A DNA stretch of 64,000 nucleotides. It comes from Bacilli bacterium. GTDB lineage: Bacteria; Bacillota_I; Bacilli_A; RF39; UBA660. The DNA lies in NCBI GenBank assembly GCA_017435485.1, contig JAFSEY010000011.1, positions 1-64,000 of the forward strand. The letters are read 5' to 3'. Position numbers and translations under genes: made by a program. The notes beneath the pieces were generated by a model. It searched no databases. It saw nothing but the letters and a program-made list of their open reading frames with translations, and had not been told where the DNA came from. This document shows, in pieces, positions 35,089 to 57,382 of this stretch; the first letter of the stretch is position 1, and every line of letters begins with the position of its first letter.

Positions 35089-35955
35089 ATGGATAAAATA
35101 CAATTACAAAAAGATATTGAAGAAGTAATAAAAAAATATTGTCAAACTAAAGATTTATGTCGTTTAGGTTTTGAATACGCTGAATATGAAAAGGCCTTTG
35201 CCTTTACTAATGAAAATTTATTTGAACTATATCATAAACTTATGAAAGATAGATATCATTCAGCTTTAACAGTTTTATCAAGTGGCGATCATGCTTTCAA
35301 TTTAATTTATCATGATGTTATGCAAATAGATACTTTTGATTGTAATAGATTAACTGAATACTATTCATTAGGATTTAAAAAAACAGCGTTAGAAATATTA
35401 GATTTTGAAGAATTTTGTGATTTATTCAAAGAATATAATCCGAGTATAGAAAAGTATGTAATAGATGCTTTACCGAAAAAGTATAAAATATTTTGGCAAT
35501 ACTTTCTAGACGCCCGTAAAGAAGTAACTGAAAGTCCAAGTATTTTCGACTTAGTTAGAGGAAAAAATATTAGATATGCCGAAAAATATAATTATTATTT
35601 TAATAAAACTTGCTTTAATAATTTAAAACCAAAATTAAAAGAAGCAACTATAACATTTACTTGTGCCGATATAAAAGAGGTTCCGGAAAAGTTTTCTAAA
35701 TATGATTTGATAATGTTATCAACGATTTTAAATTATCGTTCAGAAATTTTAGGAATGACAATAGGCGAAGCTGTAGCTTTAGTTGAAAAGTTTTATCACA
35801 ACAATTTAAACGACTTTGGCGAGCTAGTTTATGGATATAAATATATATATTCAGAAGAGATTGATGATATTTATGAAAATATTAACTTTGGTAGAAAACT
35901 AACAAGAAATGTAGATGACGGAACATCTTTCAGTTTAGAAAAAGGATGTGATTAA
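35089..35955 (+). CDS. Array copy 1, DUF3419-like SAM-binding protein
   Basis: A 288-residue protein in the HAFNLIY subgroup. LSSGDHAFNL is at 64-73, DTFDCNRLTEYYSLGF at 81-96 (the only copy with Ser in this place), and YDLIMLSTIL near 205, where Thr replaces the Asn that the other 23 copies have in LSN. That change could affect the substrate pocket. ATG 35089 follows GGGTGAT; an in-frame GTG at 35080 is part of that ribosome site. Copy 2 starts 1 nt after its stop. Confidence 0.85.
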   Translation: MDKIQLQKDIEEVIKKYCQTKDLCRLGFEYAEYEKAFAFTNENLFELYHKLMKDRYHSALTVLSSGDHAFNLIYHDVMQIDTFDCNRLTEYYSLGFKKTALEILDFEEFCDLFKEYNPSIEKYVIDALPKKYKIFWQYFLDARKEVTESPSIFDLVRGKNIRYAEKYNYYFNKTCFNNLKPKLKEATITFTCADIKEVPEKFSKYDLIMLSTILNYRSEILGMTIGEAVALVEKFYHNNLNDFGELVYGYKYIYSEEIDDIYENINFGRKLTRNVDDGTSFSLEKGCD

Positions 35956-35956
35956 A

Positions 35957-36913
35957 ATGGGGTTGTTTGATGATGAAATTGAAGTACCAGAAAATGATTT
36001 GCTTGAAAAAGTAGGAAAAGATCTCAATGAAGCAATAGCAATATTTTGTCATAGATTAGTAGACAAACATACAGCAGAAGATTATAGAGGGTATTCACGA
36101 CCTTATCAAAGCACCAATGAATATCTAAGAGGAATATATAGTCAAGTTGATATGTCTAAATATAATAATGCTTTAACAGTACTATCAAGTGGAGATCATG
36201 TTTTTAACTTGTTATATCACGATGTTTTCAATATAGATACATTCGACTGTAATCGTTTAACTGAATATTATGCTTTAGGCTTTAAATTAACAGCCATAAA
36301 AGTTCTTACTTTTAAACAGTTTGAAGATTTATTTGCTGATCGAGATGATTACGAGCGTAGCATTGAAAAATATGTAATAAATAAAATGCCATTTCATTAT
36401 CAATTGTTTTGGCAACGTCTTTTAGAAAAACGTCAAGATATTGATTTTGAAAGACCTACGGTGTTTGATTTTTGCCGAGATGTTGGATACGATCGTTCTC
36501 ACCATTTTGATTATTCAGAAGCAAGAACAAGATATAATACTTTAAATGCCTATCGAAATCCTGATGGTTTTGAAAAAGTAAAAGAAAATTTAAAAAAAGC
36601 TAATATAACTTTTAAAGTATCTGATATTAGAGAAATACCCCAAAAGTTTGGCGCTTATGATTTCATTGAATTATCTAATATTATTGGTGTGTTAATGAAC
36701 TGGATTGAACCGGAACTCTTAATATCTATAATAAAAAATATATATGATAACAATCTAAATAATAATGGCGAAATGATATTTACATATAGATATAATAGTC
36801 CAACAATTGCAAGAGATGAAGTTTATAATGAAATTAATTTTGGGCATAAAAGAGAACTAAGTATATGGCCGGATTCGGCTGGTAGTTTAATGAAAAAAGG
36901 GAAATTAAAATGA
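35957..36913 (+). CDS. Array copy 2, longest member
   Basis: At 318 residues the longest copy. It has an acidic N-terminal extension (MGLFDDEIEVPENDLLEK) and an insertion after CRDVGYDRSHHFDYSEAR. Core motifs are LSSGDHVFNL and DTFDCNRLTEYYALGFKLTAI; YDFIELSNIIGVL follows. Phrases FERPTVF and CRDVG are shared with its neighbourhood (copy 3 and the remnant near 41615). ATG 35957 is chosen over GTG 35948, which lies in the AAAGGATGTGA ribosome site. Stop overlaps copy 3 by 4 nt. Confidence 0.85.
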   Translation: MGLFDDEIEVPENDLLEKVGKDLNEAIAIFCHRLVDKHTAEDYRGYSRPYQSTNEYLRGIYSQVDMSKYNNALTVLSSGDHVFNLLYHDVFNIDTFDCNRLTEYYALGFKLTAIKVLTFKQFEDLFADRDDYERSIEKYVINKMPFHYQLFWQRLLEKRQDIDFERPTVFDFCRDVGYDRSHHFDYSEARTRYNTLNAYRNPDGFEKVKENLKKANITFKVSDIREIPQKFGAYDFIELSNIIGVLMNWIEPELLISIIKNIYDNNLNNNGEMIFTYRYNSPTIARDEVYNEINFGHKRELSIWPDSAGSLMKKGKLK

Positions 36914-37788
36914 TTGAAGTTAGTCAGAGAAAAAAAGATATAAATGAAGTAATAAAAAAATATTGTAGTTCAAGCAGTTTAAAAGCAATAGGTTATGATT
37001 ATAGTGAATATGGTAGAGCATATCATTTTACTAATGAACATTTAATTGAATTATATAATCAAATAGATTTTACAAATTACCAAACGGGGTTATGTGTCTT
37101 ATCTAGTGGAGATCACGCTTTTAATATGATTTATAAAGGAATAGAGCAAATTGATACGTTTGATAGTAGCAGATTAACAGAGTATTATGCTCTAGGTATT
37201 AAAAAGACTGCTATTGAAGTTTTAAATTATCGAGAATTTTTAACATTATTTTCTAACTCGTTATTCCGAAACGAAAATGAGCTGGCTTTAGAAAAATACG
37301 TATTATCATGTACATCAGAAGAATATAAATCTTTTTGGATAGCATTTTTAGAAGCAAGAAAAAAACTAGGAGAAGAAAAACCAACAATATTTACAATATG
37401 CCGAGATGTTGGAATAATTAGAGGGAATAATTTATATTTACAAAGTGAATCAGCTTATAATAGGTTAAAAGATAATTTGAAATACGCTCGATTAACTTAT
37501 ACAAATGCTGATATTACAGCAGTATCAAATATATTTGGAACTTATAATGTTATAAATTTATCGAATATTATAAGTGTATTAGATAGTTATGTGGAACCGG
37601 CTGTTATTCATAATATGATAAAAATTATTTATGATCACAATTTAAATCAAAATGGCGAAATGATATATGACTATAAATATATGGAAGATGTAATTAGTGA
37701 TGATGAATATTTTCTTGGGGTTGATTATGCTCCCAAAATTATAAGAAAATTAGCTGGTGATGAAGTGGCTTGTCTTCAAAAAAGATGA
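36910..37788 (+). CDS. Array copy 3
   Basis: A 292-residue member with two core substitutions: FDSSRL in place of FD-x-NRL, so the conserved Asn is Ser, and YNVINLSNI in place of YDLI. Motif I LSSGDHAFNM is normal. It begins MIEVSQRKKDINEVIKKYC, very like copy 1 (IEEVIKKYC), so the two are close relatives. The start overlaps copy 2 as ATGA. A decayed fragment of another copy starts right after its stop. Confidence 0.84.
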   Translation: MIEVSQRKKDINEVIKKYCSSSSLKAIGYDYSEYGRAYHFTNEHLIELYNQIDFTNYQTGLCVLSSGDHAFNMIYKGIEQIDTFDSSRLTEYYALGIKKTAIEVLNYREFLTLFSNSLFRNENELALEKYVLSCTSEEYKSFWIAFLEARKKLGEEKPTIFTICRDVGIIRGNNLYLQSESAYNRLKDNLKYARLTYTNADITAVSNIFGTYNVINLSNIISVLDSYVEPAVIHNMIKIIYDHNLNQNGEMIYDYKYMEDVISDDEYFLGVDYAPKIIRKLAGDEVACLQKR

Positions 37789-37789
37789 T

Positions 37790-37882
37790 AAAATAGAAAA
37801 TAGATTAAGTGAGTATTACGCATTAGGATTTAAAAAACGCTTGAAGTACTTGACTAGCATCAATTTTAAATTTATTTATTGA
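37790..37882 (+). pseudogene. Remnant of an array gene
   Basis: A frame with no start codon encodes NRLSEYYALGFKKRLKYL before a stop at 37880-37882. The first 14 residues match the NRLTEYYALGFKKRA core of the intact copies, and the rest diverges. Everything upstream of this core is missing. It is a deleted copy left between copies 3 and 4, which shows that array members are lost as well as gained. Confidence 0.75.
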
Positions 37883-37902
37883 TTTCGATAATAACGAACT
37901 AT

Positions 37903-37929
37903 ATTTGAAAAAGATTGTATTTTTCAAAT
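37903..37929. repeat. AT-rich palindrome between copies 3 and 4
   Basis: ATTTGAAAAA (37903-37912) pairs perfectly with TTTTTCAAAT (37920-37929) around a 7-nt loop. No T run follows, so it is not a standard terminator. It may be a regulator site or a weak transcriptional pause. Confidence 0.4.
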
Positions 37930-37935
37930 AATTGA

Positions 37936-37962
37936 TTGCCTTTTCTGATTTAATGATATAAA
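37936..37962 (+). promoter_or_regulatory. Possible promoter before array copy 4
   Basis: TATAAA (37957-37962) with TTGCCT (37936-37941) 15 bp upstream, a short spacing. The 203-nt gap ahead of copy 4 makes some promoter here likely. Confidence 0.35.
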
Positions 37963-37991
37963 ATAAAATCCAAAGTTTAAGGTGAGATCAA

Positions 37992-38858
37992 ATGGACTCA
38001 AGAAATAAAGATTTACTTGCAACAATAGAATTATATAAATCTATGCAAAAATTGTGTTACAATGGCTATAAATTTTTTGACTATGGAGCTGTTTACCAAC
38101 AAACAAATGAAAATATGGTTAAGCTATTCAAGCAAATAAATTTAAAAAAAGTAAACAATGCTTTAACGGTAACATCAAGTGGAGACCAAGTATTAAATCT
38201 TCTTTCCCAAGGTGTTACGAACATAGATACTTTTGATACTAATCGTTTAACTGAATATTATGCTTTGGGATTTAAATTAGTTGCAGCACAATGCTTAAAT
38301 ATAGAACAATTTTTAAAATTGTTTAAAGAATCTAATTCAAGGGAAAGTTTAGAATTGCAAAAGTATGTAATTTCTTGCTCTTCGGGTGAATATAGATGGT
38401 TTTGGGAAAGCTTTATTGATTTTCTGGATAATGAAAAGAAAGACCATAGCGGAGTATTTGAAATATGTCGCAAAAAAGTAGAAAGTCATACAGATAATAA
38501 TGTTTATTTACAAACTTTGGAATTGTACGACGAAACGAAAAAGAACTTAAATAATGCTAATATTACCTTTAATCAATTAAATATAACGGATTTACCAAAT
38601 GAATTAGGGACTTATGATTTTATTTATTTATCAAATATTATTGAGTATCGTCAAAAAATATTTGGTCCAACCGATTTGGTAACAGATGTTATCAAACTAA
38701 TCGAATCTATTTATAATCATAATTTAAATTCAAAAGGAGAATTGTTCTATTTATATGTAATATTTCGAAATTATCAAGAAGTCATGAATAATATTAAAAT
38801 AGCTAAAACAATCATTTATAAAGACAAAAACTTAATTGCTTTAAGCTTAAAAAAATAA
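37992..38858 (+). CDS. Array copy 4
   Basis: A 288-residue member. Motif I reads VTSSGDQVLNL, the only copy where Thr precedes SSGD, and the acidic region is DTFDTNRLTEYYALGFKLVAA. The strand YDFIYLSNIIEYR is normal. The C-terminus is short and divergent (IIYKDKNLIALSLKK). It begins MDSRNKDLLATIELY, without the EQR start. GGTGAGATC gives the ribosome site. Copy 5 follows after 13 nt. Confidence 0.84.
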   Translation: MDSRNKDLLATIELYKSMQKLCYNGYKFFDYGAVYQQTNENMVKLFKQINLKKVNNALTVTSSGDQVLNLLSQGVTNIDTFDTNRLTEYYALGFKLVAAQCLNIEQFLKLFKESNSRESLELQKYVISCSSGEYRWFWESFIDFLDNEKKDHSGVFEICRKKVESHTDNNVYLQTLELYDETKKNLNNANITFNQLNITDLPNELGTYDFIYLSNIIEYRQKIFGPTDLVTDVIKLIESIYNHNLNSKGELFYLYVIFRNYQEVMNNIKIAKTIIYKDKNLIALSLKK

Positions 38859-38871
38859 AGGATGTGAGAAT

Positions 38872-39750
38872 ATGGAAAATATTTGTCAGTGGGAAAAAGA
38901 TTTGCGCGAGATAATATCTCGTGGACAGGATATTTTTGTTAATTATCAAGAGTATTCTAAATGCTATCCATTTACGAACGAGAGACTAAGTGACTTAATG
39001 TATTTATTGAACACAAGTGGAGTATACAATGCGTTATGTGTCTTATCTAGTGGAGATCATGTTTTTAATTTGATTAGCAAAGGTATAATTAACATCGATA
39101 CATTTGATACTAATCGATTAACAGAATATTATGCCTTAGGTTTTAAAAAGACTGCATTGCAGAATTTAAAATATCAAGAATTTTGTGATTACTTTTTTGG
39201 ACCACATTATCAAAGGGAAAAAACAAAACCAATAGAAAACTATGTTATTGAACATATGCCGCAACAATATAGGGCGTTTTGGCAAGGATATATAAATAAC
39301 TTAGAAGAAAGAAAAAAAGATAATAAAGGCATATTTGAGCTTCTTACTTTTCTCGGATTTGATACAGCAATAGAATATAATAAATATTTATCTAGTGAGA
39401 TAGAATATAATAATTTGCAAAAGAACTTAGAAAAAGCAAATATAAGTTTCTCTCCAATTAACATAAAAAAAGTATGGCATAGTATGGGAAAATATGATTT
39501 AATATTGCTTTCAAATGTTATACAGGCAATGAGAAAACCTTTATTTGGGAAAGCAATTAATATTGCCGATAAGATTTATAAACATAATTTAAATGAAAAT
39601 GGCGAAATGATATATTTATATGAATTTGTTGATCCAGATTTTTTTAGGAAAGATGAAGTTATATTAGCCAGAACTTTAAAGGGCAATGATATCAAATACT
39701 TATTAAATGGTAGTTATGCTACTGGAAAGAAAAAAGTAGCAATTAGGTAA
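38872..39750 (+). CDS. Array copy 5
   Basis: A 292-residue member starting MENICQWEKDLREI. Motif I is LSSGDHVFNL, then DTFDTNRLTEYYALGFKKTAL; YDLILLSNVIQAM follows. The C-terminus has a unique basic tail (GSYATGKKKVAIR). GGATGTGAG precedes the ATG. Only 4 nt separate it from copy 6, so the two are clearly in one operon. Confidence 0.84.
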   Translation: MENICQWEKDLREIISRGQDIFVNYQEYSKCYPFTNERLSDLMYLLNTSGVYNALCVLSSGDHVFNLISKGIINIDTFDTNRLTEYYALGFKKTALQNLKYQEFCDYFFGPHYQREKTKPIENYVIEHMPQQYRAFWQGYINNLEERKKDNKGIFELLTFLGFDTAIEYNKYLSSEIEYNNLQKNLEKANISFSPINIKKVWHSMGKYDLILLSNVIQAMRKPLFGKAINIADKIYKHNLNENGEMIYLYEFVDPDFFRKDEVILARTLKGNDIKYLLNGSYATGKKKVAIR

Positions 39751-39754
39751 TATT

Positions 39755-40633
39755 ATGATAACTATCATTAATAATGAACAGCGTCAAAAAGACTTAAATC
39801 AAATACCAGAATTTATAAATGATAGTGAGTTTGATTATAAATTTCAAGAGTATTCTGCGATTTATTATCTTACTAATGAAAAGTTAGCAAATTTATATAA
39901 TGAAATTAATTTTACAAAATATAAGACAGCTTTAACAGTTTTATCAAGTGGCGATCAAACTTTTAATTTAATATTAGAAGGCGTAGAAAGAATAGATACC
40001 TTTGATTGTAATCGGTTGGCAGAATATTATGCGTTAGGTTTTAAAAAAACCGCAATTCAATGCTTAGATTATAAAGATTTTACCAATTTATTTTATCTTC
40101 GTCAGAAAAAGCTATATGACTTAGAAAGCGAAGTAATAAAACATATGCCAAAAGAATATAAAATTTTTTGGAAAACTTATCGGGAAGTATATAGACAATA
40201 TTATCCTTATCCTAGTGTATTAGGCTTGGCTAAAGAACATAATTTTCCTAATGGAAATAATATTTATTTTAGTAAAGAAAGTTATAAATATTTGCAAAAA
40301 AGATTAAATGATGTATTAATTACATTTAGTTATGCAGAAGTTAAACAATTACCTGAGGCGTTTGGTCAATATGATTTTATATATTTATCTAATATTCTAT
40401 CATATGATCACTGGGTATTTAATAGCAAAGATAGGGAATGTTTAGCAGAGCAGTATGCTAAGTTTGTTTTAGATATTTATACAAAAAATTTAAATCCGAA
40501 TGGACTTTTAATATATAATTATGGATTTAATGGTTTAATAGACAAGTATTGTAGTAATGAAATTGTAGAAAGAAAAGTCACTTATGATTTAGAAAAGTTA
40601 GATAGAGCATACGGGTTAAGAAAACTTAAATAG
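39755..40633 (+). CDS. Array copy 6
   Basis: A 292-residue member starting MITIINNEQRQKDLNQI. Motif I is LSSGDQTFNL and the acidic region FDCNRLAEYYALGF (Ala instead of the usual Thr, shared only with copy 16). YDFIYLSNILSYD matches the family. AGGTAAT lies before the ATG. The C-terminus ends DRAYGLRKLK. Copy 7 follows after 13 nt. Confidence 0.84.
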   Translation: MITIINNEQRQKDLNQIPEFINDSEFDYKFQEYSAIYYLTNEKLANLYNEINFTKYKTALTVLSSGDQTFNLILEGVERIDTFDCNRLAEYYALGFKKTAIQCLDYKDFTNLFYLRQKKLYDLESEVIKHMPKEYKIFWKTYREVYRQYYPYPSVLGLAKEHNFPNGNNIYFSKESYKYLQKRLNDVLITFSYAEVKQLPEAFGQYDFIYLSNILSYDHWVFNSKDRECLAEQYAKFVLDIYTKNLNPNGLLIYNYGFNGLIDKYCSNEIVERKVTYDLEKLDRAYGLRKLK

Positions 40634-40646
40634 AAAGGTGAATATT

Positions 40647-41543
40647 ATGTTAAGCTTAGAAGAACAAAGACAAGTCGACATTCAAAAAGTTTTAGAAATA
40701 TATGGAAAAGCCGATATTTCTTTAACTGGTACTTTTTTTGAGGAATATTCTCGTTTCTATGATTTTACTAATGAAAAACTATTTGCTTTATTTGAATTAC
40801 TAAAATTAAATGGAAAAGAATCTGCTTTAACAGTTTTATCAAGTGGAGATCATGTATTTAATTTAATATTACAAGGAATTAATACTGTTACGACATTTGA
40901 TTGTAATCGTTTAACAGAATATTATGCTCTAGGATTTAAAAAAACCGCTATTGAAATACTTAATTATGAACAATTTATTGAATTATTTTGTCCGTATGGA
41001 TATTCGGCAGTGTCATCTAAATTAAATGAATTAGAAAAAGAAGTTATCAAAAATATGCCTCTTGCTTATCGGAAATTTTGGGAAAGCTTTTTAAATATGC
41101 GTAGAGAATATGAATATAATCCGAGTGTTTTTCATTTGACGTATTCAACTAGTAACTTTGCAAAAGCACTCAGCAATAATAAATATCTTTTAAATGCAGA
41201 AATGTATAACGCTTTAAAAAGGAAAATATCAAACGCCAAAATTGAATTTGTTGCTACTAATATAACTGATGTTCCAAAATTATTCGGAAGATACGATTAT
41301 ATAGATTTTTCGAATGTATTATACTTTTATCAAGGGATATTTCCTGAAGAAAGTGCAAAAAAAGCTATTAATCTTGTCAAATCAGTTTATGAAAACAACC
41401 TCAACAAAGATGGATTGTTTAAATATTATTATAATTTTGATGGAGTGAGAACTTTTCCTAAATTTGGTAGCAATATAGAAAAAGAATATGTTTTAGATTC
41501 TGATACAACTTCAATTTTAAAAAGAACAATAAATATGGATTAA
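40647..41543 (+). CDS. Array copy 7
   Basis: A 298-residue member starting MLSLEEQRQVDIQKV. Motif I LSSGDHVFNL is followed by TTFDCNRLTEYYALGFKKTAI. The later strand reads YDYIDFSNVLYFY, with Phe before SN where most have Leu. ATG 40647, behind AAAGGTGA, is preferred to GTG 40638. It is the last of the first HxFN-type block; 109 nt without a complete gene follow. Confidence 0.84.
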   Translation: MLSLEEQRQVDIQKVLEIYGKADISLTGTFFEEYSRFYDFTNEKLFALFELLKLNGKESALTVLSSGDHVFNLILQGINTVTTFDCNRLTEYYALGFKKTAIEILNYEQFIELFCPYGYSAVSSKLNELEKEVIKNMPLAYRKFWESFLNMRREYEYNPSVFHLTYSTSNFAKALSNNKYLLNAEMYNALKRKISNAKIEFVATNITDVPKLFGRYDYIDFSNVLYFYQGIFPEESAKKAINLVKSVYENNLNKDGLFKYYYNFDGVRTFPKFGSNIEKEYVLDSDTTSILKRTINMD

Positions 41544-41569
41544 AAAATAACTTGCGAATTTCAATAACA

Positions 41570-41640
41570 TGCTTTAAGATATAACGCACCAGTAATAACA
41601 AAGATTAATTTATTTGAAAGACCTACAGTTTTATTTTAGG
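41570..41640 (+). pseudogene. Possible second remnant of an array gene
   Basis: In the gap between copies 7 and 8 a frame reads INLFERPTVLF before TAG at 41636-41638. Copy 2 has DFERPTVFDFC at the equivalent place in its middle region, and DNA identity is visible there (GAAAGACCTACG against GAAAGACCTACA). The match is only about eight residues, so chance cannot be excluded. Confidence 0.3.
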
Positions 41641-41652
41641 GGGAGTAAAGTT

Positions 41653-42576
41653 ATGGTAATATCACAACAGCGTAGATTTGACTTAGAAAATACGATTAAA
41701 ATATATTTAGAAGGTTATCAAAATGGATATTTTGGAGTTAATGATGATTTTATAGAATATGCTAGTTTCTATCATTTGACTAATGAACCTGTTAATAAAA
41801 TATTTAGTGAAATCGTTTTGAATGAGATTCAAAAAGCTTTAAGCGTTCTAGCTAGCGGGGATCAAGTATTTCATATGATTAGTGGCGGGGTTCAAAATAT
41901 TGATAGCTTTGATATAAATCGCTTAACAGAATATTATGCCCTAGGATTTAAAAAGCGCGCAATAGAATGTTTAAATTATTATGAATTTATGAAGTTGTTT
42001 GAGTATTATAAAGACTGGGAACTCGAACGGCATTTTAGCGAAAATAAAGACATAGAAAAGTATGTAATTGAAAATATGGAGGAAGAATACAAATGGTTTT
42101 GGAATGAATTCCTTTATGCCGCAAAAGAAAAAGGATTTGAAGCAAGTATATTTCATTTATCTTGTGAAGCTGATCTTATTGATAGGCAAAATACAAAAAA
42201 CAATTTATATATGAAAGATGAAAGTGAGTATATTAACCTACAAAGAAGACTGAAGGAAGTTAATATATCATATAAGTATTGCTCAATAATGGATGTTCCA
42301 ACTACATTTACTAAATATGATTTGATATATCTTTCTAATATTATGGATTATTATCGTTCTTTTTATGGAAATAATAATAGACCAATGGATGATGCTAGAA
42401 ATTTAATTAAAGCCATTTACACCCAAAATTTAAATCCAAATGGCGAAATAATATTAACGGAAATGCAAAGAAAATTTTCACCCAATGAATTTTTAAAAGA
42501 AATGATTAATCATCCGATCATTAATAATTGTCTATTTACAGCTTATGGAATAAAAAAGAAGCGAAAATTAAAGTAA
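41653..42576 (+). CDS. Array copy 8, first of the EQR/KKRAIE subgroup
   Basis: A 307-residue member starting MVISQQRRFDLENTI. Motif I is LASGDQVFHM, then DSFDINRLTEYYALGFKKRAIE; YDLIYLSNIMDYY follows. The W-rich helix IEKYVIENMEEEYKWFWNEF typifies this subgroup. It is closest to copy 17 (both have FIEYASFYHLTNE and GDQVFH). ATG 41653 behind GGGGGAG is chosen over an upstream in-frame start at 41614. Copy 9 starts 20 nt later. Confidence 0.84.
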   Translation: MVISQQRRFDLENTIKIYLEGYQNGYFGVNDDFIEYASFYHLTNEPVNKIFSEIVLNEIQKALSVLASGDQVFHMISGGVQNIDSFDINRLTEYYALGFKKRAIECLNYYEFMKLFEYYKDWELERHFSENKDIEKYVIENMEEEYKWFWNEFLYAAKEKGFEASIFHLSCEADLIDRQNTKNNLYMKDESEYINLQRRLKEVNISYKYCSIMDVPTTFTKYDLIYLSNIMDYYRSFYGNNNRPMDDARNLIKAIYTQNLNPNGEIILTEMQRKFSPNEFLKEMINHPIINNCLFTAYGIKKKRKLK

Positions 42577-42596
42577 ATAAATAGGGGGCAATACAA

Positions 42597-43490
42597 ATGG
42601 TAATATCAGAACAACGACAAGAAGATTTACATAAAGCTATTGATTTATATTTAAAAATATATCAAGAAGGAAAAGTAGAATTAAAAAGCGAATTTTCAAA
42701 ATATTCAGGCTATTATTATATAACAAATGAACCTATACGTGATATATTTGACATAAGAACAAAATATGAAAATAAAAAAATTTTAAGTGTATTAGCAGGT
42801 GGAGATCATATATTTGAAATGATATTTAAAGGAGCTAGTAATGTAGATACCTTTGATATTAATGCTTTATTGGAATATTACACAATTGGATTTAAAAAAA
42901 GAGCAATAGAGTGTTTAGCTTATCAAGAATATCTTGATTTGTTTGATTTTTCATATGATGGACTAGAAAATAAATATTATAATATAAAAACTGAAATAGA
43001 AGACTATGTTGTTAAAAATATGGATGAAGAATATAGCTGGTTTTGGAAAGAAGTTAAACGTATTTTAAAAGAGTATGGATATGAAGCAAGTGTATTTCAT
43101 TTTGCTTTAAATATTAAACAAAAAGATTTTAATAAACCAAGCTTTTTAAAAAGTGAAGATAACTATAAAATTCTTCAAAATAAATTAAAATCTACAACTA
43201 TAAATTTTCAACAAGCGAATATAATAGAACTACGAATAAAATTTCCTAAATATGATTTAATCTATTTATCAAATATCTTAGATTATAGGGAACAAGAATA
43301 TGCTAAAACACTATTAACTGATATATATAATAATAACTTATATAAAAATGGCCAAATAATATTTACAGATTTATGTAGCTATTTTGACGAAGAAATATAC
43401 GAATCAGTTCCAGGCGCAGAAAAAATTAAAAGATGGTTTGATAATCCAGGCCTTCCTTGTTATGGCTTAAAAAAGAGGAGGATTAAATGA
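42597..43490 (+). CDS. Array copy 9, altered acidic motif
   Basis: A 297-residue member starting MVISEQRQEDLHKAI. Motif I is LAGGDHIFEM. The acidic motif reads DTFDINALLEYYTIGF, the only copy in which the Arg of NRL is replaced (Ala) and the following Thr is Leu. YDLIYLSNILDYR is normal. This suggests altered or lost substrate binding. AGGGGGCAA is the ribosome site. The stop overlaps copy 10 by 4 nt. Confidence 0.84.
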   Translation: MVISEQRQEDLHKAIDLYLKIYQEGKVELKSEFSKYSGYYYITNEPIRDIFDIRTKYENKKILSVLAGGDHIFEMIFKGASNVDTFDINALLEYYTIGFKKRAIECLAYQEYLDLFDFSYDGLENKYYNIKTEIEDYVVKNMDEEYSWFWKEVKRILKEYGYEASVFHFALNIKQKDFNKPSFLKSEDNYKILQNKLKSTTINFQQANIIELRIKFPKYDLIYLSNILDYREQEYAKTLLTDIYNNNLYKNGQIIFTDLCSYFDEEIYESVPGAEKIKRWFDNPGLPCYGLKKRRIK

Positions 43491-49125: not shown

Positions 49126-49171
49126 ACAAAACTAACTAGTGGTCATTTTAAATAAAAAAGGAGAAATAAGA

Positions 49172-50089
49172 ATGACAGCATCAGAACAAAGAGAAAAAGA
49201 TATAATAGAAGCAACAAATATGTACTTATATAAAACATCGAAGCTGCACGACGCATATAGCTATGCTTATCGATTTACAAATGAAAATGTTGATAGTATA
49301 TGGAGTCTTTTTGAATTTAGTGCTAATGTAAAATTATTAAGCGTCTTATCAAGTGGAGATCAACTATTTGATATGGTTTTAAATGGGATAAAAAATGCAG
49401 ATACGTTTGATTGCAACAGAATCGCTGAATATTATACTTTAGGGTTTAAAAAGGTAGCAATAGAAACCCTGAACTATTATCAGTTTTTAGATTTATTTAA
49501 TTATGAAAAAAGAAGTAGGAAAAAATCAAAGATGGAGAATTATGTAATTTCATGTGCTCCAGAAGAATACAAAAACTTTTGGCAGGAATTATTCTATAAT
49601 TTAAAACAAAGTGGTATTAATTCAAGTGTCTTTGATTTTGTAAGAGGGGAAAACATTCAAGATGTACTTTTAAACAATAGATGTAATTATCTAAAAACTA
49701 ATGAAAACTATACAAGTCTTCAAAAGGCACTAAGAGAATCAAATATAACTTTTAAATATAATGATATTAAAAATATTCCTGAAGGATATGGTAAGTATGA
49801 TTTTATTTACATATCTAATATCATGGATTATTTTAATGATATATTTTCTGAACAATCAGAACTAGACGCCTTATCTAGCACATTAGAATTGCTTCAAAAA
49901 ATATATGATGTAAATTTAAATAAGCCTGGAGAAATTCTTTTAACTTATTTTCCTCGAACGTTTATTAATGAAATATTAAATAGAAATAGTTCTGCAAAAT
50001 TCAGTCCAGTAAAAATAAGTTGTACTAAAAAGGTGCGATATCCTAATGCAGTAGCTCTAGAAAAAGGAAGAGTTTTATGGAAAAAGTAA
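49172..50089 (+). CDS. Array copy 16
   Basis: A 305-residue member starting MTASEQREKDIIEATNMY. Motif I LSSGDQLFDM; acidic region DTFDCNRIAEYYTLGFKKVAI, with Ile for Leu and Ala for Thr. The strand is YDFIYISNIMDYF. The frame is open from 49139, but ATG 49172, 7 nt after AAAGGAGA, aligns with the start of the other copies. First gene behind an internal promoter. The end overlaps copy 17 by 13 nt. Confidence 0.85.
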   Translation: MTASEQREKDIIEATNMYLYKTSKLHDAYSYAYRFTNENVDSIWSLFEFSANVKLLSVLSSGDQLFDMVLNGIKNADTFDCNRIAEYYTLGFKKVAIETLNYYQFLDLFNYEKRSRKKSKMENYVISCAPEEYKNFWQELFYNLKQSGINSSVFDFVRGENIQDVLLNNRCNYLKTNENYTSLQKALRESNITFKYNDIKNIPEGYGKYDFIYISNIMDYFNDIFSEQSELDALSSTLELLQKIYDVNLNKPGEILLTYFPRTFINEILNRNSSAKFSPVKISCTKKVRYPNAVALEKGRVLWKK

Positions 50090-50997
50090 TTAGTGAACAA
50101 AGAAGAAAAGATTTAGAAGCAACTACTAAATTATATTTAGAAGGATATTGTAGTAAAGCGTTTGAAATATCTGGAAAATTTATAGAGTACGCTAGCTTTT
50201 ATCATTTGACTAATGAATCGGTTGAGACATTTTTAAAAATTGTAACTCTTACACCATCAACCAAAGCGTTAAGTATCTTAGCAAGCGGCGATCAAGTATT
50301 TCATTTAGTTCAAAGAGGTCTAAAAGATATAGATACATTTGATATAAATAGATTAACAGAGTATTATGCATTAGGATTTAAAAAAAGAGCAATCGAATGT
50401 TTAAGTTTTGATGATTATAATAAGCTTTTTGAATATTATAAAGAGCATTATGATAGAACTCATAACCATCAACATTTAGATATAGAACAATATGTAATTG
50501 AAAATATGGAAGATGAATACAAGTGGTTTTGGCAAGAATTGTTTTATAATTTAAAACAACAAGGTTTTAATGCCAGTGTGTTTCACTTTGCAAATAATGC
50601 TGATAAATTAAGTTCTATATGCAGAATCCCTAATTCATATATGAAAGATAAGGACAAATACAAAGAATTACAACAAAAATTAACAAAAGCCAATATAACA
50701 TTTAAACAATCATCAATTGTAGATGTACCAACAAATTTTACAAATAAATACGATTTAATATATTTGTCTAATGTAATGGAATATTATACTGAATTCTTTA
50801 GCGGAAACAAAAAGCAAGCTTTAGATTTACTTAAAAAAATTTATAGTGAAAATTTAAACAAAAATGGCGAAATATTACTAATTGATCTTATTGAAAGATT
50901 TATATCTGTGTTGACAGAAGATAATTTTTTAAAGGAACACAGATATATAATAGGGCGTGACACAACATATGGATATACTCTAAAAAAGGAGAAATAA
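50077..50997 (+). CDS. Array copy 17
   Basis: A 306-residue member starting MEKVISEQRRKDLEATTKL. LASGDQVFHL and DTFDINRLTEYYALGFKKRAIE; the strand is YDLIYLSNVMEYY. It resembles copy 8, eight genes upstream (FIEYASFYHLTNE in both), more than its direct neighbours, which suggests block duplication or gene conversion. It begins inside copy 16 behind AAAAGGAAGAG. Two nt separate it from copy 18. Confidence 0.85.
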   Translation: MEKVISEQRRKDLEATTKLYLEGYCSKAFEISGKFIEYASFYHLTNESVETFLKIVTLTPSTKALSILASGDQVFHLVQRGLKDIDTFDINRLTEYYALGFKKRAIECLSFDDYNKLFEYYKEHYDRTHNHQHLDIEQYVIENMEDEYKWFWQELFYNLKQQGFNASVFHFANNADKLSSICRIPNSYMKDKDKYKELQQKLTKANITFKQSSIVDVPTNFTNKYDLIYLSNVMEYYTEFFSGNKKQALDLLKKIYSENLNKNGEILLIDLIERFISVLTEDNFLKEHRYIIGRDTTYGYTLKKEK

Positions 50998-50999
50998 GA

Positions 51000-51896
51000 A
51001 TGACAGTATCAGAACAAAGAAGAAAAGATTTAGAAGAAGCATTAAAATTAAGTGGCAAAAAAATTAAAGAAGTTACTGATTTTAAGGAATATAATATCTT
51101 TTTTGGCCTAACTAATGAGTATCTACAAGATTTATGGAGTCGATTCCGCATTTCTGGTGAAACAGGTTTATCGGTATTAGCAAGTGGAGACCAAATGTTA
51201 AACTTAATTTATAAGGGTGTTTCTAAAATAGATACATTTGATATAAATAGATTAACAGAATATTATGCAATAGGTTTTAAAAAACGTGCTATAGAATGTT
51301 TGAGTTATGAACAATTTATAAAACTTTTTGATTATTATGATAGAAATACAGCACCTTACTATTTTTTAAATCCTGAACTCGAAAAATATGTTATAGAAAA
51401 TATGGAAGAGGAATACAAAAGGTTTTGGCAAGAATTTTTATATAGATCTAAAGAGTTGAATCCAACTAAACCAAATTCAATATTCATATTAGCCCAAAAA
51501 TCAGAGCTAAAATGGGTTAAATCAAATCATAGTAATATATACATGAATAATATAAAAAACTACCAAAAGCTTCAACAAAATCTATTGGATGCTAAAATAA
51601 CATTTCAGCAAATGAATATTTTAGACATATCACCAAATATGGGGAAATACGATACAATATTTTTATCTAATATTTTTGATTATTATGAAGATATGTTTGA
51701 TGAAAACCCATTTGATGAGGCACTTAAATTGGCTAAAAGTATCTATGAAAATAATCTGCAAGATGGCGGTCAATTAATATTTATCCACCTGTTTTCTCGC
51801 TTTTTAAGTCGCCTAATGGATGAAAATTATGTTGAAGATACAAGGCTATATGATTTAGCTCTAGGATGGAAAAAGCCTAGAAGTAGAAAAAGATAG
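51000..51896 (+). CDS. Array copy 18
   Basis: A 298-residue member starting MTVSEQRRKDLEEALKL. The N-terminal region is shortened and motif I reads LASGDQMLNL after GETGLSV. The acidic region is DTFDINRLTEYYAIGFKKRAIE, and the strand YDTIFLSNIFDYY. The C-terminus ends in a basic tail (KKPRSRKR). AAAAAGGAGAAA is the ribosome site. Copy 19 follows after 11 nt. Confidence 0.85.
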   Translation: MTVSEQRRKDLEEALKLSGKKIKEVTDFKEYNIFFGLTNEYLQDLWSRFRISGETGLSVLASGDQMLNLIYKGVSKIDTFDINRLTEYYAIGFKKRAIECLSYEQFIKLFDYYDRNTAPYYFLNPELEKYVIENMEEEYKRFWQEFLYRSKELNPTKPNSIFILAQKSELKWVKSNHSNIYMNNIKNYQKLQQNLLDAKITFQQMNILDISPNMGKYDTIFLSNIFDYYEDMFDENPFDEALKLAKSIYENNLQDGGQLIFIHLFSRFLSRLMDENYVEDTRLYDLALGWKKPRSRKR

Positions 51897-51907
51897 AGAT
51901 GATAAAT

Positions 51908-52795
51908 ATGAATAAACAAAGAGAAAAAGATTTGGAACAAACAATTAAGCTTTATGATGAGTTACAATCAGATTACTATTTAGGAATTGATTTTGAAGAA
52001 TATTCTAAAATATATTCTTTTACAAACGAATATTTAGCTAATATGTTCTTACAAATGAATTTGTCGTGTAAGAAAAATGCTTTAACTGTATTATCAAGTG
52101 GCGATCATGCTTTTAATTTAATTTATATGGGTATTGAAAACATTGATACATTTGATTCGAATCGCTTAACTGAATACTATGCGCTGGGTTTAAAAAAGAC
52201 AGCTATCCAATGCTTAAATTATAATGAATTTATGAAATTATTTTCTGGAAAAATAGAACGAAAACAAATTGAACTGCTTAATTATGTGATTCAAAATATG
52301 GAACCAGAATATCGTAATTATTTTGAAACATTAATTGCATACTTTAAAAAATATTCTTTTGACTATGTAATTCATTTATTTAGAAGCGATACTGATATAA
52401 GTCAAAAAGATATAAAAAACATCTATCTTCGTTCCGATGTTAATTATCACAAAATGCAAAAAAGATTAGCTGAAGCCACTATTAGTTTTAAACATTGTGA
52501 TGTGTTAAATATTCCAAAAGATTTTGGAAAGTATGATTTAGTAGAACTATCCAATATTTTAGGAGTAAGCGTGAACAGAAACTGGCTGCAGAAAAAAAGA
52601 GTTTCTGATTTGCTTTGTCAAATTTATAATAATAATTTAAACGAACATGGAGAATTGCTATTTGATTATTCATGGGGAAATGATTTTAGAACAGTAGGGG
52701 CATGTAGTGATATTTATGATAATGTTAGCTATGCAAATAAAAAAGAATATGCATATATGAACGATCTTATAAGAAGCTTAAAAAAACAACTATAG
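51908..52795 (+). CDS. Array copy 19
   Basis: A 295-residue member starting MNKQREKDLEQTIKLY. LSSGDHAFNLIYMGI and DTFDSNRLTEYYALGLKKTAI; strand YDLVELSNILGVS. Closest to copy 15. ATG 51908 is chosen over ATG 51899, since it matches the MNKQ start of copy 15; the ribosome site is weak for both. Its last codons are inside a terminator stem. Confidence 0.84.
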   Translation: MNKQREKDLEQTIKLYDELQSDYYLGIDFEEYSKIYSFTNEYLANMFLQMNLSCKKNALTVLSSGDHAFNLIYMGIENIDTFDSNRLTEYYALGLKKTAIQCLNYNEFMKLFSGKIERKQIELLNYVIQNMEPEYRNYFETLIAYFKKYSFDYVIHLFRSDTDISQKDIKNIYLRSDVNYHKMQKRLAEATISFKHCDVLNIPKDFGKYDLVELSNILGVSVNRNWLQKKRVSDLLCQIYNNNLNEHGELLFDYSWGNDFRTVGACSDIYDNVSYANKKEYAYMNDLIRSLKKQL

Positions 52796-52807
52796 GTTGT
52801 TTTTTTT
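52781..52807 (+). terminator. Internal array terminator after copy 19
   Basis: AAAAAACAAC (52781-52790) pairs with GTTGTTTTTT (52796-52805) around TATAG, followed by T. It overlaps the end of copy 19. Confidence 0.8.
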
Positions 52808-52823
52808 ATTATTTTATTATAAA
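52797..52823 (+). promoter_or_regulatory. Internal array promoter before copy 20
   Basis: TTGTTT (52797-52802), 15-bp spacer, TATAAA (52818-52823), then ATACAAACTTAACTAGT. The block is a diverged duplicate of the one before copy 16. GTAAGGGG is the ribosome site. Confidence 0.5.
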
Positions 52824-52853
52824 ATACAAACTTAACTAGTAAGGGGTATCTTT

Positions 52854-53741
52854 ATGAGAAGTTTAGAAGAACAAAGATTAGAAGATTTAAGACAAATTAA
52901 AGATAGAATTAAAACTGGTATTATATCATACGATTTCGAAGAATATGCCGCTTTCTATAACTTTTCTAATGAACATATAAATAAAAAATATTCCCAAATT
53001 GATTTTACAAATTATCATACGGCATTAACCGTTTTATCAAGTGGAGACCATGCCTTTAATGCAATATATCAGGGAATTGATAACGTTGATACTTTTGATG
53101 TGAATCGTTTAACAGAGTATTATGCCCTAGGCTTTAAAAAAAGAGCCATAGAGTGTTTAACTTTTGAACAATTCTGTACGTTGTATAGTAAAAGAGATCG
53201 AATGGATTTAGAAGATGAAGTTATTAAAAATATGGATGATGAATATAAAAAATTTTGGGAAGCTTATAAATATGAACTGAAATGTTTGGGAGAAGAGATT
53301 CCAACTGTGCTATATTGGACTAAGGCAATAATGTATCCTCATGGACATGATTACAATGCTTATTTGAATGATGAACAAACATATAAACATTTACAAAAAC
53401 GATTAGAAGTTGCTAAAATAAGTTTTGCTCAAGCCAATATAACCGAATTACCTTCAAAATTTGGAACTTATGATTTTATTGAACTTTCTAATATATTAAC
53501 TTATCAGCACAAAATTTTCTCTCATAATGTAAAAAAGAATACCACAAAATTAGTTACAGATATATATGACCATAATTTGAATGGTTTTGGTACAATGCTT
53601 TACCAAACTGGAGGAACTATAGTTGGAGATAATCCGTTAGCTCTTTATGTACCTAGACGCCTTAAAAGAGCTAAAAAAATTTTTGATAAAAACAATTCTG
53701 AAGATTGGATATATGGCCTTCAAAAAGGAGGCAGAAAATGA
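52854..53741 (+). CDS. Array copy 20
   Basis: A 295-residue member starting MRSLEEQRLEDLRQIKD. LSSGDHAFNAIYQGI is followed by DTFDVNRLTEYYALGFKKRAIE. The aromatic segment reads FEEYAAFYNFSNE, Ser in place of the usual Thr; only copy 21 shares this. Strand YDFIELSNILTYQ. Copies 20 and 21 are the most similar neighbours and look like a recent tandem duplication. They overlap by 4 nt. Confidence 0.85.
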   Translation: MRSLEEQRLEDLRQIKDRIKTGIISYDFEEYAAFYNFSNEHINKKYSQIDFTNYHTALTVLSSGDHAFNAIYQGIDNVDTFDVNRLTEYYALGFKKRAIECLTFEQFCTLYSKRDRMDLEDEVIKNMDDEYKKFWEAYKYELKCLGEEIPTVLYWTKAIMYPHGHDYNAYLNDEQTYKHLQKRLEVAKISFAQANITELPSKFGTYDFIELSNILTYQHKIFSHNVKKNTTKLVTDIYDHNLNGFGTMLYQTGGTIVGDNPLALYVPRRLKRAKKIFDKNNSEDWIYGLQKGGRK

Positions 53742-54622
53742 ATTTGAAAAAACAAAGATTAAAAGATCTGCGACAATTAAAAGAAATTATTAAACAGAAT
53801 GGTTTAACACATAACTTTGAAGAATATGCTGCTTTTTATTATTTTTCGAATGAACAAATTAATCGCATATTTTCGCAAATCAATTTTGAAAAATATCATA
53901 CCATGTTAAGTGTCTTATCAAGTGGAGACCATGCTTTTAATGCCATTTATCACGGGATAGATGTAGTAGATACATTTGATGTGAATCGAATGACTGAATA
54001 TTATGCTTTAGGTTTTAAAAAAAGAGCAATCGAATGTTTAAACTTTGAACAATTTTGTTTATTGTATACTTTAAATGGACGAGATAAAAAATTATTGGAT
54101 TTGGAAGATGAAGTAATAAACAATATGGATCAGGAGTATAAGAAGTTTTGGAAAACTTATAAATATAAAATGAAAGAACAAAGAAAATCAGGCCAAAGTG
54201 TATTATATTGGAACAAGGAAGAGTCTTGGCCAGAAGGCGGACATTATAATGCTTATCTAGATTCTGAACAAGCTTATAAATATTTACAAAAGAGATTAGA
54301 AAGTGCTAAAATAACGTTTACCCACGCAAATATAACAGAATTGCCAACAAAATTTAAAGCATATGATTTTGTTGAATTATCTAATATTCTATCGTATAGA
54401 GAAGATATTTATGAAAAAAAAGCGGAGTATTATACAAGTAAATTAATAGGTGATATTTACAATAATAATTTAAAAAGTAACGGAATAATGATATATCAAA
54501 CTAGAGGACTTGATCCATTGAGTCCATTGTTTGCTCCTATGCAACTAAAAAGGGCGAGAAAAACTTTTGCTGAAAGTGATGGATGGTTGTGCGTATATGG
54601 CCTTCAGAAAGGAGGTAAATAA
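53738..54622 (+). CDS. Array copy 21
   Basis: A 294-residue member starting MNLKKQRLKDLRQLKEI, near-duplicate of copy 20: FEEYAAFYYFSNE, LSSGDHAFNAIYHGI, DTFDVNRMTEYYALGFKKRAIE, and the same C-terminal theme (PMQLKRARKTF against PRRLKRAKKIF). ATG 53738 follows AAAGGAGGC and overlaps the copy 20 stop; the frame's earlier ATG at 53705 is inside copy 20. Overlaps copy 22 by 1 nt. Confidence 0.85.
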   Translation: MNLKKQRLKDLRQLKEIIKQNGLTHNFEEYAAFYYFSNEQINRIFSQINFEKYHTMLSVLSSGDHAFNAIYHGIDVVDTFDVNRMTEYYALGFKKRAIECLNFEQFCLLYTLNGRDKKLLDLEDEVINNMDQEYKKFWKTYKYKMKEQRKSGQSVLYWNKEESWPEGGHYNAYLDSEQAYKYLQKRLESAKITFTHANITELPTKFKAYDFVELSNILSYREDIYEKKAEYYTSKLIGDIYNNNLKSNGIMIYQTRGLDPLSPLFAPMQLKRARKTFAESDGWLCVYGLQKGGK

Positions 54623-55545
54623 TGATAATACCAGAACAACGAAGAAAAGATTTAGCGTGTACATTAGAACTATATAAAAGATTATATAGTGACTTTGAAG
54701 AATTAAGAACAAAAGATTTTAAAGAATATAATGTATTATATATGATGACAAATGAACAATTAAATGATATTTGGCATAAAAGAAAACAACTTGGAAACTG
54801 TAATGCTTTAAGTGTGTTAGCAAGTGGAGATCAAGCATTTAATTTGATAAATAAAGGTGTTTTATCAATAGATACTTATGATATAAATCGTTTGACAGAG
54901 TACTATGCCTTAGGGTTTAAAAAAACAGCAATAGAAACTTTATCTTTTATGGATTTTTTAAATTTGTTTGATCGTTATGATTTAGAATGGAACTCTGACC
55001 TTGAACGTGAAGTAATTAAAAATATGCCGGATGAATATCGTTGGTTTTGGCAAGAATTTTTATATTCAGCAAAAGATATAAAACGAAATCCTAGCATATT
55101 TGATTTGGTAGGTGGTTGTGGTATTATAGATCAAATATTATGTGATCGGAAAAACAATTATTTGTTAGATGAAAATGAATATAAGCTGTTACAAGAAAAT
55201 ATGAAAAAAGCCAAAATAACTTTTAGCTGTTGTGATATAAAAGAAATCCCAAAATCATTTGGTCAATACAATATTATCTATCTTTCTAATATTTTAGATT
55301 ACTATAAACAAATTTTTAGAGGAAAGCATTCTTTACAAAAAGCCTATAAATTATTGACAACTATTTATATGAAGAATTTAAAAGATTCCGGAGAAATATT
55401 TTTAACAAATTTAACAGGAGATTTTAGAACGAAATTATTTTTGGATAATCCTGAAATACCTCAAAATAAATATTATGATTATTTAAATGAATTGATAGCT
55501 ACAGGAATTCCTAAGGGAAAAGCTTTGTTAAAAACTAAAAAATAG
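54622..55545 (+). CDS. Array copy 22
   Basis: A 307-residue member starting MIIPEQRRKDLACTLEL. LASGDQAFNL is followed by DTYDINRLTEYYALGFKKTAIE, the only copy with Tyr before the acidic Asp. The strand YNIIYLSNILDYY has Asn instead of Asp. GAAAGGAGG is a strong ribosome site ending in the previous stop (TAATG). Copy 23 follows after 9 nt. Confidence 0.85.
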   Translation: MIIPEQRRKDLACTLELYKRLYSDFEELRTKDFKEYNVLYMMTNEQLNDIWHKRKQLGNCNALSVLASGDQAFNLINKGVLSIDTYDINRLTEYYALGFKKTAIETLSFMDFLNLFDRYDLEWNSDLEREVIKNMPDEYRWFWQEFLYSAKDIKRNPSIFDLVGGCGIIDQILCDRKNNYLLDENEYKLLQENMKKAKITFSCCDIKEIPKSFGQYNIIYLSNILDYYKQIFRGKHSLQKAYKLLTTIYMKNLKDSGEIFLTNLTGDFRTKLFLDNPEIPQNKYYDYLNELIATGIPKGKALLKTKK

Positions 55546-55554
55546 GTGATGTAA

Positions 55555-56493
55555 ATGACAATACCAGATCAAAGAAAAATAGATTTACAAAAGGCTATAG
55601 AAGTTTATATGCGCAAATTAAGAAGAAATAATCCAAACGTAGATGGTGGAGAGTATGGATTATATTATCGCTTTACTAATGAACCCTTAGCCAACTTTAT
55701 TAATAAGATAAATGTTTCTGCGAATACTGAGGTGCTTACTGTGCTAGCTAGTGGAGACCAAGCATTTAATTTTATCCAAGCAGGAGCAAATCACATAGAT
55801 ACATTTGACATTAATCGCTTAACAGAATATTTTGCCCTTGGTTTTAAAAAGACGGCCATTCAAGTATTAAATTATGAACGATTTTTAAATTTATTTAATT
55901 ATAATAGTTTAAAACCCCAAAATGCCCCTGACTTAGAATTAGAAAAAAGTATCATAGAATCATGCCCAGAGGAATACAAGTGGTTTTGGCAAGAATTTAC
56001 GCGTATTTTAAAAGATAATAACTTAAATCCCAGTGTATTTGAAATATCTGATGGATTTCATTCTAATATCGTGAAAAAACATCACTTTAATAGATATACG
56101 AATAATGAGGAAAATTACAAATTGTTACAAAAGCGATTGTTAGAAACAACTATATCATTTCAGCCTTTAGACTTAGCAGATGTATCTAAAGCAATAACAC
56201 TAAAATATGACTATGTATTTATATCCAATATTTTAGATGCTTATGCTACCCATGTTTCTAATAATATGCCTGATTCTTTAAAAGTGGCATTGAAAATATT
56301 TTTAGATATTTATCGCCATAATGTAAAAAGAAATGGAGAATTAGCATTTTCAACGTTTGATTTTGGTGGATTTGGTGATGAATTTATCGATATGTATAAT
56401 TCGTTAGATAATAAAAATGGTGAAAAAGTTATGTATCCGGGTGAAGTACCTCTGATATTTGGTTTGCGTAAAAGTAAAGGGGTAAAAAGATAA
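55555..56493 (+). CDS. Array copy 23
   Basis: A 312-residue member starting MTIPDQRKIDLQKAIEV. LASGDQAFNF and DTFDINRLTEYFALGFKKTAI. The strand is longer here (LKYDYVFISNILDAY), preceded by DLADVSKAIT instead of the usual ELPxKF. The C-terminal third is divergent (FGDEFIDMYNSLDNKNG). TAGGTGATG is the ribosome site. Copy 24 follows after 1 nt. Confidence 0.85.
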   Translation: MTIPDQRKIDLQKAIEVYMRKLRRNNPNVDGGEYGLYYRFTNEPLANFINKINVSANTEVLTVLASGDQAFNFIQAGANHIDTFDINRLTEYFALGFKKTAIQVLNYERFLNLFNYNSLKPQNAPDLELEKSIIESCPEEYKWFWQEFTRILKDNNLNPSVFEISDGFHSNIVKKHHFNRYTNNEENYKLLQKRLLETTISFQPLDLADVSKAITLKYDYVFISNILDAYATHVSNNMPDSLKVALKIFLDIYRHNVKRNGELAFSTFDFGGFGDEFIDMYNSLDNKNGEKVMYPGEVPLIFGLRKSKGVKR

Positions 56494-56494
56494 A

Positions 56495-57382
56495 ATGACA
56501 GAATCGGAGAAACATCAATTGTTAAAAGATATTGAACAAAGTGTTAAAATTTTTCAAACTGCTGCAAGATTCACAGAATATAGTAAAGTATATCCATATA
56601 CTAATGAAAATCTTATTAAAAAATACAGTTTAATAATTGAGGGTGATTATCAAACGGCGTTAACTGTCTTATCAAGTGGCGATCATCTTCTTAATTTAGT
56701 TATGAATGGTACATCCCATATAGATACTTTTGATAGTAATAAAATGACAGAATATTATGTTATGGGTATTAAAATACCAGCCATTTTAAATATGACGTAT
56801 GAGCAATATATGAAGTTTTACAAAACATTGCTTAGGCCTGGAATTAATGAAGATAAAATATTTGCTGTTGTAAAAGGCGCAGAAGAAAAATATAAATACT
56901 TTTGGGAAGAGTTCTATCGCATATATTATGACCAAAATAACTTGAGATTTGATTTTGAAAATTTATTTATTTCTGAATTTGATAGGTCGCATTTTAATAA
57001 ATATCTTCGAAGTTCTAGTGATTATCAAAAAATGCAATCTTGTTTAAAAGATGCTACAATAACGTTTAAACATGCAGATGTTACAACAATCCCATTAGAA
57101 TTTAAAACATATGATTTAATAGACATCTCAAATATCCTAAATTATTATGAAACAATTTTTAAAGCATATAATTATCCGCGAGAAGAAAGAAAAAAATTAG
57201 TTGCTGAAATTGTTTCTAAAAATTTAATCCAAGACGGAGTCATATTCTATGATTACTTTTTAGGGACAGGTTTTTATGAAGCGATAAGACAAACGCGTGC
57301 AGTGATGATAGAAAATACTTCTCCTTTTAGTGTTGAGTGCACAAATGGGCTTGCTTTGGGTTTAACTAAAAATAAAAAATAG
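56495..57382 (+). CDS. Array copy 24, most divergent
   Basis: A 295-residue member starting MTESEKHQLLKDIEQSV. LSSGDHLLNL is followed by DTFDSNKMTEYYVMGIKIPAI, in which most of the otherwise conserved LGFKK block is changed. YDLIDISNILNYY keeps the later strand. It is the last member; pgk's promoter begins 5 nt after its stop and no terminator is evident, so array transcripts may read into pgk. Confidence 0.84.
   Translation: MTESEKHQLLKDIEQSVKIFQTAARFTEYSKVYPYTNENLIKKYSLIIEGDYQTALTVLSSGDHLLNLVMNGTSHIDTFDSNKMTEYYVMGIKIPAILNMTYEQYMKFYKTLLRPGINEDKIFAVVKGAEEKYKYFWEEFYRIYYDQNNLRFDFENLFISEFDRSHFNKYLRSSSDYQKMQSCLKDATITFKHADVTTIPLEFKTYDLIDISNILNYYETIFKAYNYPREERKKLVAEIVSKNLIQDGVIFYDYFLGTGFYEAIRQTRAVMIENTSPFSVECTNGLALGLTKNKK

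Follow-up and report, generated by a model that had tools for sequence, protein, structure and literature searches.

A 64,000-nucleotide stretch of DNA from a Bacilli bacterium of the GTDB lineage RF39, UBA660 (GenBank assembly GCA_017435485.1, contig JAFSEY010000011.1, positions 1 to 64,000; hereafter the window) carries 24 intact plus-strand open reading frames (ORFs) of 288-321 amino acids (aa), which the ORF listing of the window places consecutively, head to tail, at positions 35080-57382. These genes form a real, maintained array of single origin, and encode putative S-adenosylmethionine (SAM)-dependent transferases that are related to DUF3419 but do not match that family over its full length. 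No described system with such a layout is known to us, and the papers found to mention DUF3419, judged by titles, do not concern this lineage.

The array and its genomic setting

A first-pass annotation had recognised 24 intact head-to-tail paralogs plus at least one remnant, a count borne out by the ORF listing, by alignment of the copies and by remnant DNA between copies 3 and 4, which encodes NRLSEYYALGFKK with no surrounding ORF (Table 1). The array start given there (35089) falls within the first ORF, shortly past its opening at 35080; copy 1 could begin at ATG 35098 or at an upstream GTG (35080 or 35089). A Shine-Dalgarno-like site (at least 4 nt) precedes 18 of the 24 copies, and its position favors an internal ATG start for copies 8, 16 and 21. 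Pairwise identity in the alignment ranges from 26.5 to 61.8% (mean 36.0%) with 17 invariant columns, and all copies match a common family profile at 280-373 bits, which excludes chance likeness. The array takes up ~2% of the reduced 1.09-Mb genome (1.085 Mb in 14 contigs, 94% complete), where a single further relative, a distant one, is found at C2:13041.

There is little reason to suspect an assembly artefact: the copies differ more than mis-joined duplicates would, no exact repeat inside the array is longer than 35 bp, and a colinear array lies on one 139-kb contig in an independent assembly of a second species of the genus (G001, the metagenome-assembled genome RGIG1752 from goat caecum). 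Gene-dosage amplification, which had also been proposed, is disfavored by the mean identity of 36%.

On the left the array is bounded by the terminator of gap, and on the right by a promoter-like element ahead of pgk, tpi, spo0A and gpmI, with spo0A 2 kb past pgk-tpi. The gap terminator was missed by a terminator scanner because its stem is A+T-rich. Both boundary signals are almost unchanged in G001, which suggests that the array is transcribed separately, as one unit or several, within which copies may be expressed jointly; co-transcription with gap is disfavored by the conserved terminator and the promoter-like site before pgk. The earlier statement that no transporter, regulator or transposase is adjacent is true of the direct neighbors (gap and pgk-tpi).

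Several other genera of the bacterial family have pgk immediately after gap, and in G002 (same genus, 65% complete) the two genes are contiguous on one contig with no array. The G002 junction (L150:5569-7461) contains a PP2C-like phosphatase gene, read from its translation, and a 95-aa ORF between gap and pgk. With these genes in place of the array, the site may have received insertions more than once. The reduced genome of the host also encodes EssC, the type VII secretion ATPase (18612-23237; TIGR03928, 1077 bits), whose direct upstream neighbors are not the usual genes of that secretion system.

Table 1. Features of the locus. Rows for the copies rest on the ORF listing and the alignment of copies; remarks on G001 rest on ortholog comparison.
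Feature	Positions	Strand	Remarks
gap (glyceraldehyde-3-phosphate dehydrogenase), left boundary	34021..35025	+	sequence; gap homologues in 37/38 genomes
Intrinsic terminator of gap, perfect 9-bp inverted repeat AAATCAACA-GAAA-TGTTGATTT plus T run	35025..35055	+	sequence; conserved in G001 alignment
Copy 1	35080..35955	+	only a remnant in G001
Copy 2	35948..36913	+	
Copy 3	36910..37788	+	
Remnant of further copy (NRLSEYYALGFKK...)	37806..37858	+	sequence; bounds approximate
Copy 4	37992..38858	+	top DUF3419 match of array, 48.4 bits
Copy 5	38872..39750	+	least conserved ortholog, 52%
Copy 6	39755..40633	+	split in G001
Copy 7	40638..41543	+	
Copy 8	41614..42576	+	likely start ATG 41653; ortholog 96%
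Copy 9	42597..43490	+	
Copy 10	43487..44422	+	
Copy 11	44486..45400	+	
Copy 12	45414..46313	+	no ortholog in G001
Copy 13	46318..47244	+	
Copy 14	47238..48155	+	modelled: pLDDT 89.4, pTM 0.90
Copy 15	48168..49061	+	no separate ortholog in G001
Copy 16	49139..50089	+	likely start ATG 49172; no ortholog in G001
Copy 17	50077..50997	+	no ortholog in G001
Copy 18	51000..51896	+	no ortholog in G001
Copy 19	51899..52795	+	
Copy 20	52854..53741	+	62% identity to copy 21, the closest pair
Copy 21	53705..54622	+	likely start ATG 53738, AAGGAGG; broken in G001
Copy 22	54622..55545	+	no ortholog in G001
Copy 23	55555..56493	+	
Copy 24, most divergent	56495..57382	+	modelled: pLDDT 85.8, pTM 0.88; split by TGA in G001
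Promoter-like TTGTAA-16-TATAAT, 5' of pgk	57386..57420	+	sequence; conserved in G001 alignment; putative function
pgk (phosphoglycerate kinase), right boundary	57434..58570	+	Pfam PGK E=4e-111

Predicted fold and conserved motifs

The PF11899 (DUF3419) profile is matched by 23 of the 24 copies at E<=0.1, and about 15 pass its curated cut-off of 28.2 bits in a genome search. Wherever the matched stretch was shown, it is limited to profile positions ~4-166 of 385, the N-terminal SAM-binding half. The original assignment to DUF3419 is therefore upheld by matches that mostly exceed the cut-off, but only for the first third of the profile. Relatives in other genomes contain the same N-terminal module, down to E 2e-17. 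Weak matches to Methyltransf_31 and Methyltransf_25 occur in four copies each and fall, in copy 14, within the C-terminal half. No relatives in the PDB were found by sequence profile search.

Structural results cover two copies, 14 and 24, both of which gave confident AlphaFold models. Both models display the class I methyltransferase strand order, with a helical insertion that follows strand 2 and precedes strand 3. SAM-dependent methyltransferases, including NNMT, OvoM, AviRa and Dam, are among their best Foldseek matches in the PDB (E 4e-6 to 2e-5, probability 1.00). A predicted class I SAM fold, with a Rossmann-like core and a SAM site at strands 1 and 2, is supported by these models and by the structure search that the first-pass annotation had suggested. 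The best matches, class I small-molecule N-methyltransferases such as NNMT and OvoM, resemble the modelled proteins in fold and in the position of the SAM site. They differ in sequence (~12% identity, TM-score 0.34-0.5) and the array proteins have the long helical insertion.

Conserved SAM-type motifs are found in an N-terminal loop (Y..TNE), behind strand 1 (SSGD), behind strand 2 (D-x-N-R-x-x-E-Y-Y) and on strand 4 (Y-D-x-x-x-x-S-N); in all copies strand 4 reads Y-[DN]-x4-S-[NT], and the motif at its end is L-S-N. Of the motifs previously ascribed to every copy, [FY]D and EY[YF] are present in 24/24 and the G-D pair is invariant, whereas L-x-x-GD is found in 23/24, copy 4 having T for L. Mean column entropy among the paralogs is 0.75-1.0 bit in the three SAM segments vs. 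2.3-2.9 in insertion 1, insertion 3 and loops, and between the two species 4-8% of positions differ in SAM segments vs. 14-23% in insertion and loop segments. This pattern is consistent with a common cofactor used with many acceptors, and is hard to reconcile with dosage. The suggestion that each copy has its own acceptor agrees with a fixed SAM site surrounded by variable loops, from which we infer that acceptors may indeed differ between copies.

Origin, spread and selection

A tree built from 116 proteins groups the array copies of the two species in a single clade (bootstrap 100, SH-aLRT 98), which points to one founder gene duplicated in place. Within this clade copies pair by ortholog across the two species, and most of the expansion therefore predates their split. 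Identity falls with distance inside the array (rho -0.25, permutation p ~0.001), as local duplication would produce. It is also conceivable that an older array was acquired whole from a relative outside the sample.

The array in G001 occupies the same site and has ~15 intact and four broken copies, with orthologs 52-96% identical to those of the host. Host copies that lack an ortholog of their own are marked in Table 1; conversely, one G001 copy (~108.4-109.4 kb) has no counterpart in the host array. The ortholog of copy 19 (G001:C25:104763-105602) directly follows that of copy 14, so copies 15-18 are missing or lost there; its N-terminus is 62% similar also to copy 15. The DNA chain between the two arrays is blurred by paralogs, and deletions are thus placed only approximately, with no breakpoints claimed. 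The broken copies of G001 could include sequencing errors.

Nei-Gojobori estimates of dN/dS between host and G001 are ~0.12-0.25 for the 14 testable ortholog pairs, although dS is near or above 1 in some pairs, making those values uncertain. Such ratios argue that the array copies are maintained by selection, and support the earlier view that none is an obvious relic. Along the locus dS is 0.08 at copy 8, >1 at copies 4, 5 and 20, 0.29 at tpi and 1.37 at a PRK-domain gene, and this unevenness suggests recombination between lineages.

How widespread is the family? Relatives were found in 156 of 386 genomes of the bacterial family, and the matches among 296 genomes sampled across the class were all confined to that same family. 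Per-genome copy counts in both screens are lower bounds (at least the number given), and 16 copy-rich genomes checked in full have 2-6 copies each. A search of other genomes, as first proposed, recovered the colinear array in G001 and 0-6 copies in the other sampled relatives; among the genomes sampled the full array is seen in two species of one genus. Solitary or 2-6-copy relatives (e.g., in G387, G235 and G139, and at mreD-like-[X]-M23 sites) belong to the same family, with the same domain order and a near full-length match to its profile. They differ in having at most six copies, at other genomic sites, and in falling outside the array clade. Phage, plasmid and viral collections gave no match, which speaks against mobile cargo.

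For the most part these relatives lie next to housekeeping genes (mreC, spoIVF-like M23/M50 peptidases, gltX, sigma factors, RNase J, uvrB), which vary between lineages and indicate no pathway. At six loci (L093, L095, L096, L100, L101 and L109) one to three family members follow mreC and a short ORF and precede M23 and M50 peptidase genes resembling spoIVFA and spoIVFB. The corresponding mreC site of Bacillus holds minC-minD. Lineage-specific expansion in host-associated bacteria is also seen in Chlamydiae, where, in the available part of one report, gene families related to ubiquitination are expanded (PMC4209131). Against that part of the account, the array differs in consisting of small-molecule-type enzymes in one strict head-to-tail row within a 1.1-Mb genome.

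Possible functions and SAM supply

With moderate confidence, the array is read here as 24 cytosolic class I Rossmann-fold SAM-dependent group transferases, a lineage-specific offshoot of DUF3419/BtaA whose acceptors have diverged. In the common ancestor of the two gut Bacilli species a founder gene would have arrived between gap and pgk; tandem duplication on the spot would have multiplied it, while some copies decayed or were lost. Every copy would bind SAM through the same fixed site, formed by the four motifs described above, while the presumed acceptor-side segments would have diverged copy by copy; given this divergence, the set most likely moves a methyl or 3-amino-3-carboxypropyl group onto a range of acceptors.

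Several observations weigh against this reading. The match to the 385-position PF11899 profile covers only its first third, TM-scores to solved structures are 0.3-0.5, and no pathway gene adjoins the array, its neighbors being gap and pgk-tpi. Any SAM enzyme family conserves its cofactor site, so the conservation pattern supports acceptor diversification without proving it. Several copies are broken in G001, and not every copy can therefore be indispensable. Finally, metK is not detectable in the host genome, and SAM would need to come from import or another source.

If the copies are transferases, which group do they move? BtaA, the characterised member of DUF3419, is an aminocarboxypropyl transferase for betaine lipid, and in bacterial bta operons a BtaB-type methyltransferase is typically adjacent to it. 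The array proteins resemble BtaA in their recognisable N-terminal SAM-binding module. They are unlike it in the lack of a match beyond position ~166, in forming a narrow clade confined to one Bacilli family among sampled genomes, and in being a tandem array instead of a single gene. It is possible, though distinctly unlikely, that each copy is itself a BtaA-like lipid enzyme, placing the 3-amino-3-carboxypropyl group of SAM on a lipid headgroup to give betaine-type or amino-acid lipids. DUF3419 is the sole curated family matched above cut-off, and the aminocarboxypropyl transfer activity of BtaA has been described (PMC10491745). However, the match is restricted to the SAM half, and 24 diverged copies are needless for one lipid enzyme. 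No BtaB-like gene lies beside the array, between gap and pgk-tpi, although BtaB was not searched for elsewhere in the genome; DUF3419 itself was absent from nine alphaproteobacterial and Deinococcus megaplasmids. According to a review (PMC10491745), BtaA and a number of further aminocarboxypropyl transferases are apparently not homologous to NAS, CntL and MccD, and thus neither sequence nor fold is a guide to the group that is moved.

The supply of SAM raises a second alternative. PF02773, the C-terminal domain of bacterial SAM synthetase (MetK), was not found in the host (G000), G001 or G002, archaeal-type SAM synthetase not having been searched for. The same search detected the domain in 10 of 14 control genomes, and none of the 23 genomes sampled from other families of the class lacked it. 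Within the bacterial family it is present in 7/37 genomes and absent from 30/37, including 27 of the 34 beyond G000, G001 and G002. Genomes with the DUF3419-like family lack metK throughout (0/13, vs. 7/24 of those without the family; Fisher p 0.038 with phylogeny ignored, and 0.069 when G001, G002 and G013 are left out). This exclusion is a lead only. The host genome retains other SAM-type methyltransferases, e.g., an MTS-domain protein beside a release factor, and a nucleosidase or phosphorylase of the PNP_UDP_1 family, and for this reason imported SAM is plausible.

The array proteins could then be non-catalytic SAM-binding proteins, serving as buffer, sensor or carrier for SAM that the cell imports because it cannot make it. 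The missing metK and the SAM motifs, the most constrained part of the proteins, are in keeping with such a role, which is nonetheless given a low probability: the association with metK takes no account of phylogeny, most genomes of the family lack metK, the negative covers the bacterial type of synthetase, and a buffer has no need of 24 variants on the acceptor side. Also unlikely, if slightly less so, is a fuller version of the preferred transferase reading, in which a bacterium lacking SAM synthetase would live on imported SAM and spend it through a toolkit of 24 enzymes with distinct acceptors, modifying lipids or small molecules for life in the ruminant gut.

DNA adenine methylases, or enzymes that modify RNA or protein and have diversified in their macromolecular targets, are a little less probable than either a lipid enzyme or a SAM buffer. 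Dam and the RNA methyltransferases AviRa and TrmR are among the Foldseek matches, but no copy has a DPPY or NPPY motif on strand 4, which ends L-S-N, Pfam scans of the copies detected no added RNA-binding domain, and TM-scores are no better than with small-molecule methyltransferases. A diversified defense or conflict module under arms-race selection would account for the sporadic, variable copy number across the bacterial family and for fast turnover. It is nevertheless very improbable: there was no convincing PADLOC or PHROG match (PADLOC gave only marginal partial matches, E 0.001-0.012, in two of five copies scanned), relatives in phages, plasmids and viruses are lacking, housekeeping genes surround the array and most annotated relatives, and dN/dS is far below 1. 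Least credible of all is duplication drift leaving a selfish or neutral array of little function, since despite copies lost or broken in G001 the testable ortholog pairs are under purifying selection, ribosome-binding sites are retained and even the most divergent copy (24) is predicted to fold confidently.

The retention of 24 diverged copies in a gene-shedding lineage implies a strong benefit. The array would be a ready-made set for studying acceptor change in class I SAM enzymes, and for asking if other chemistries arose from the aminocarboxypropyl-transferring DUF3419 group. With metK apparently absent from the same genomes, the SAM economy of uncultured gut Bacilli becomes open to direct testing.

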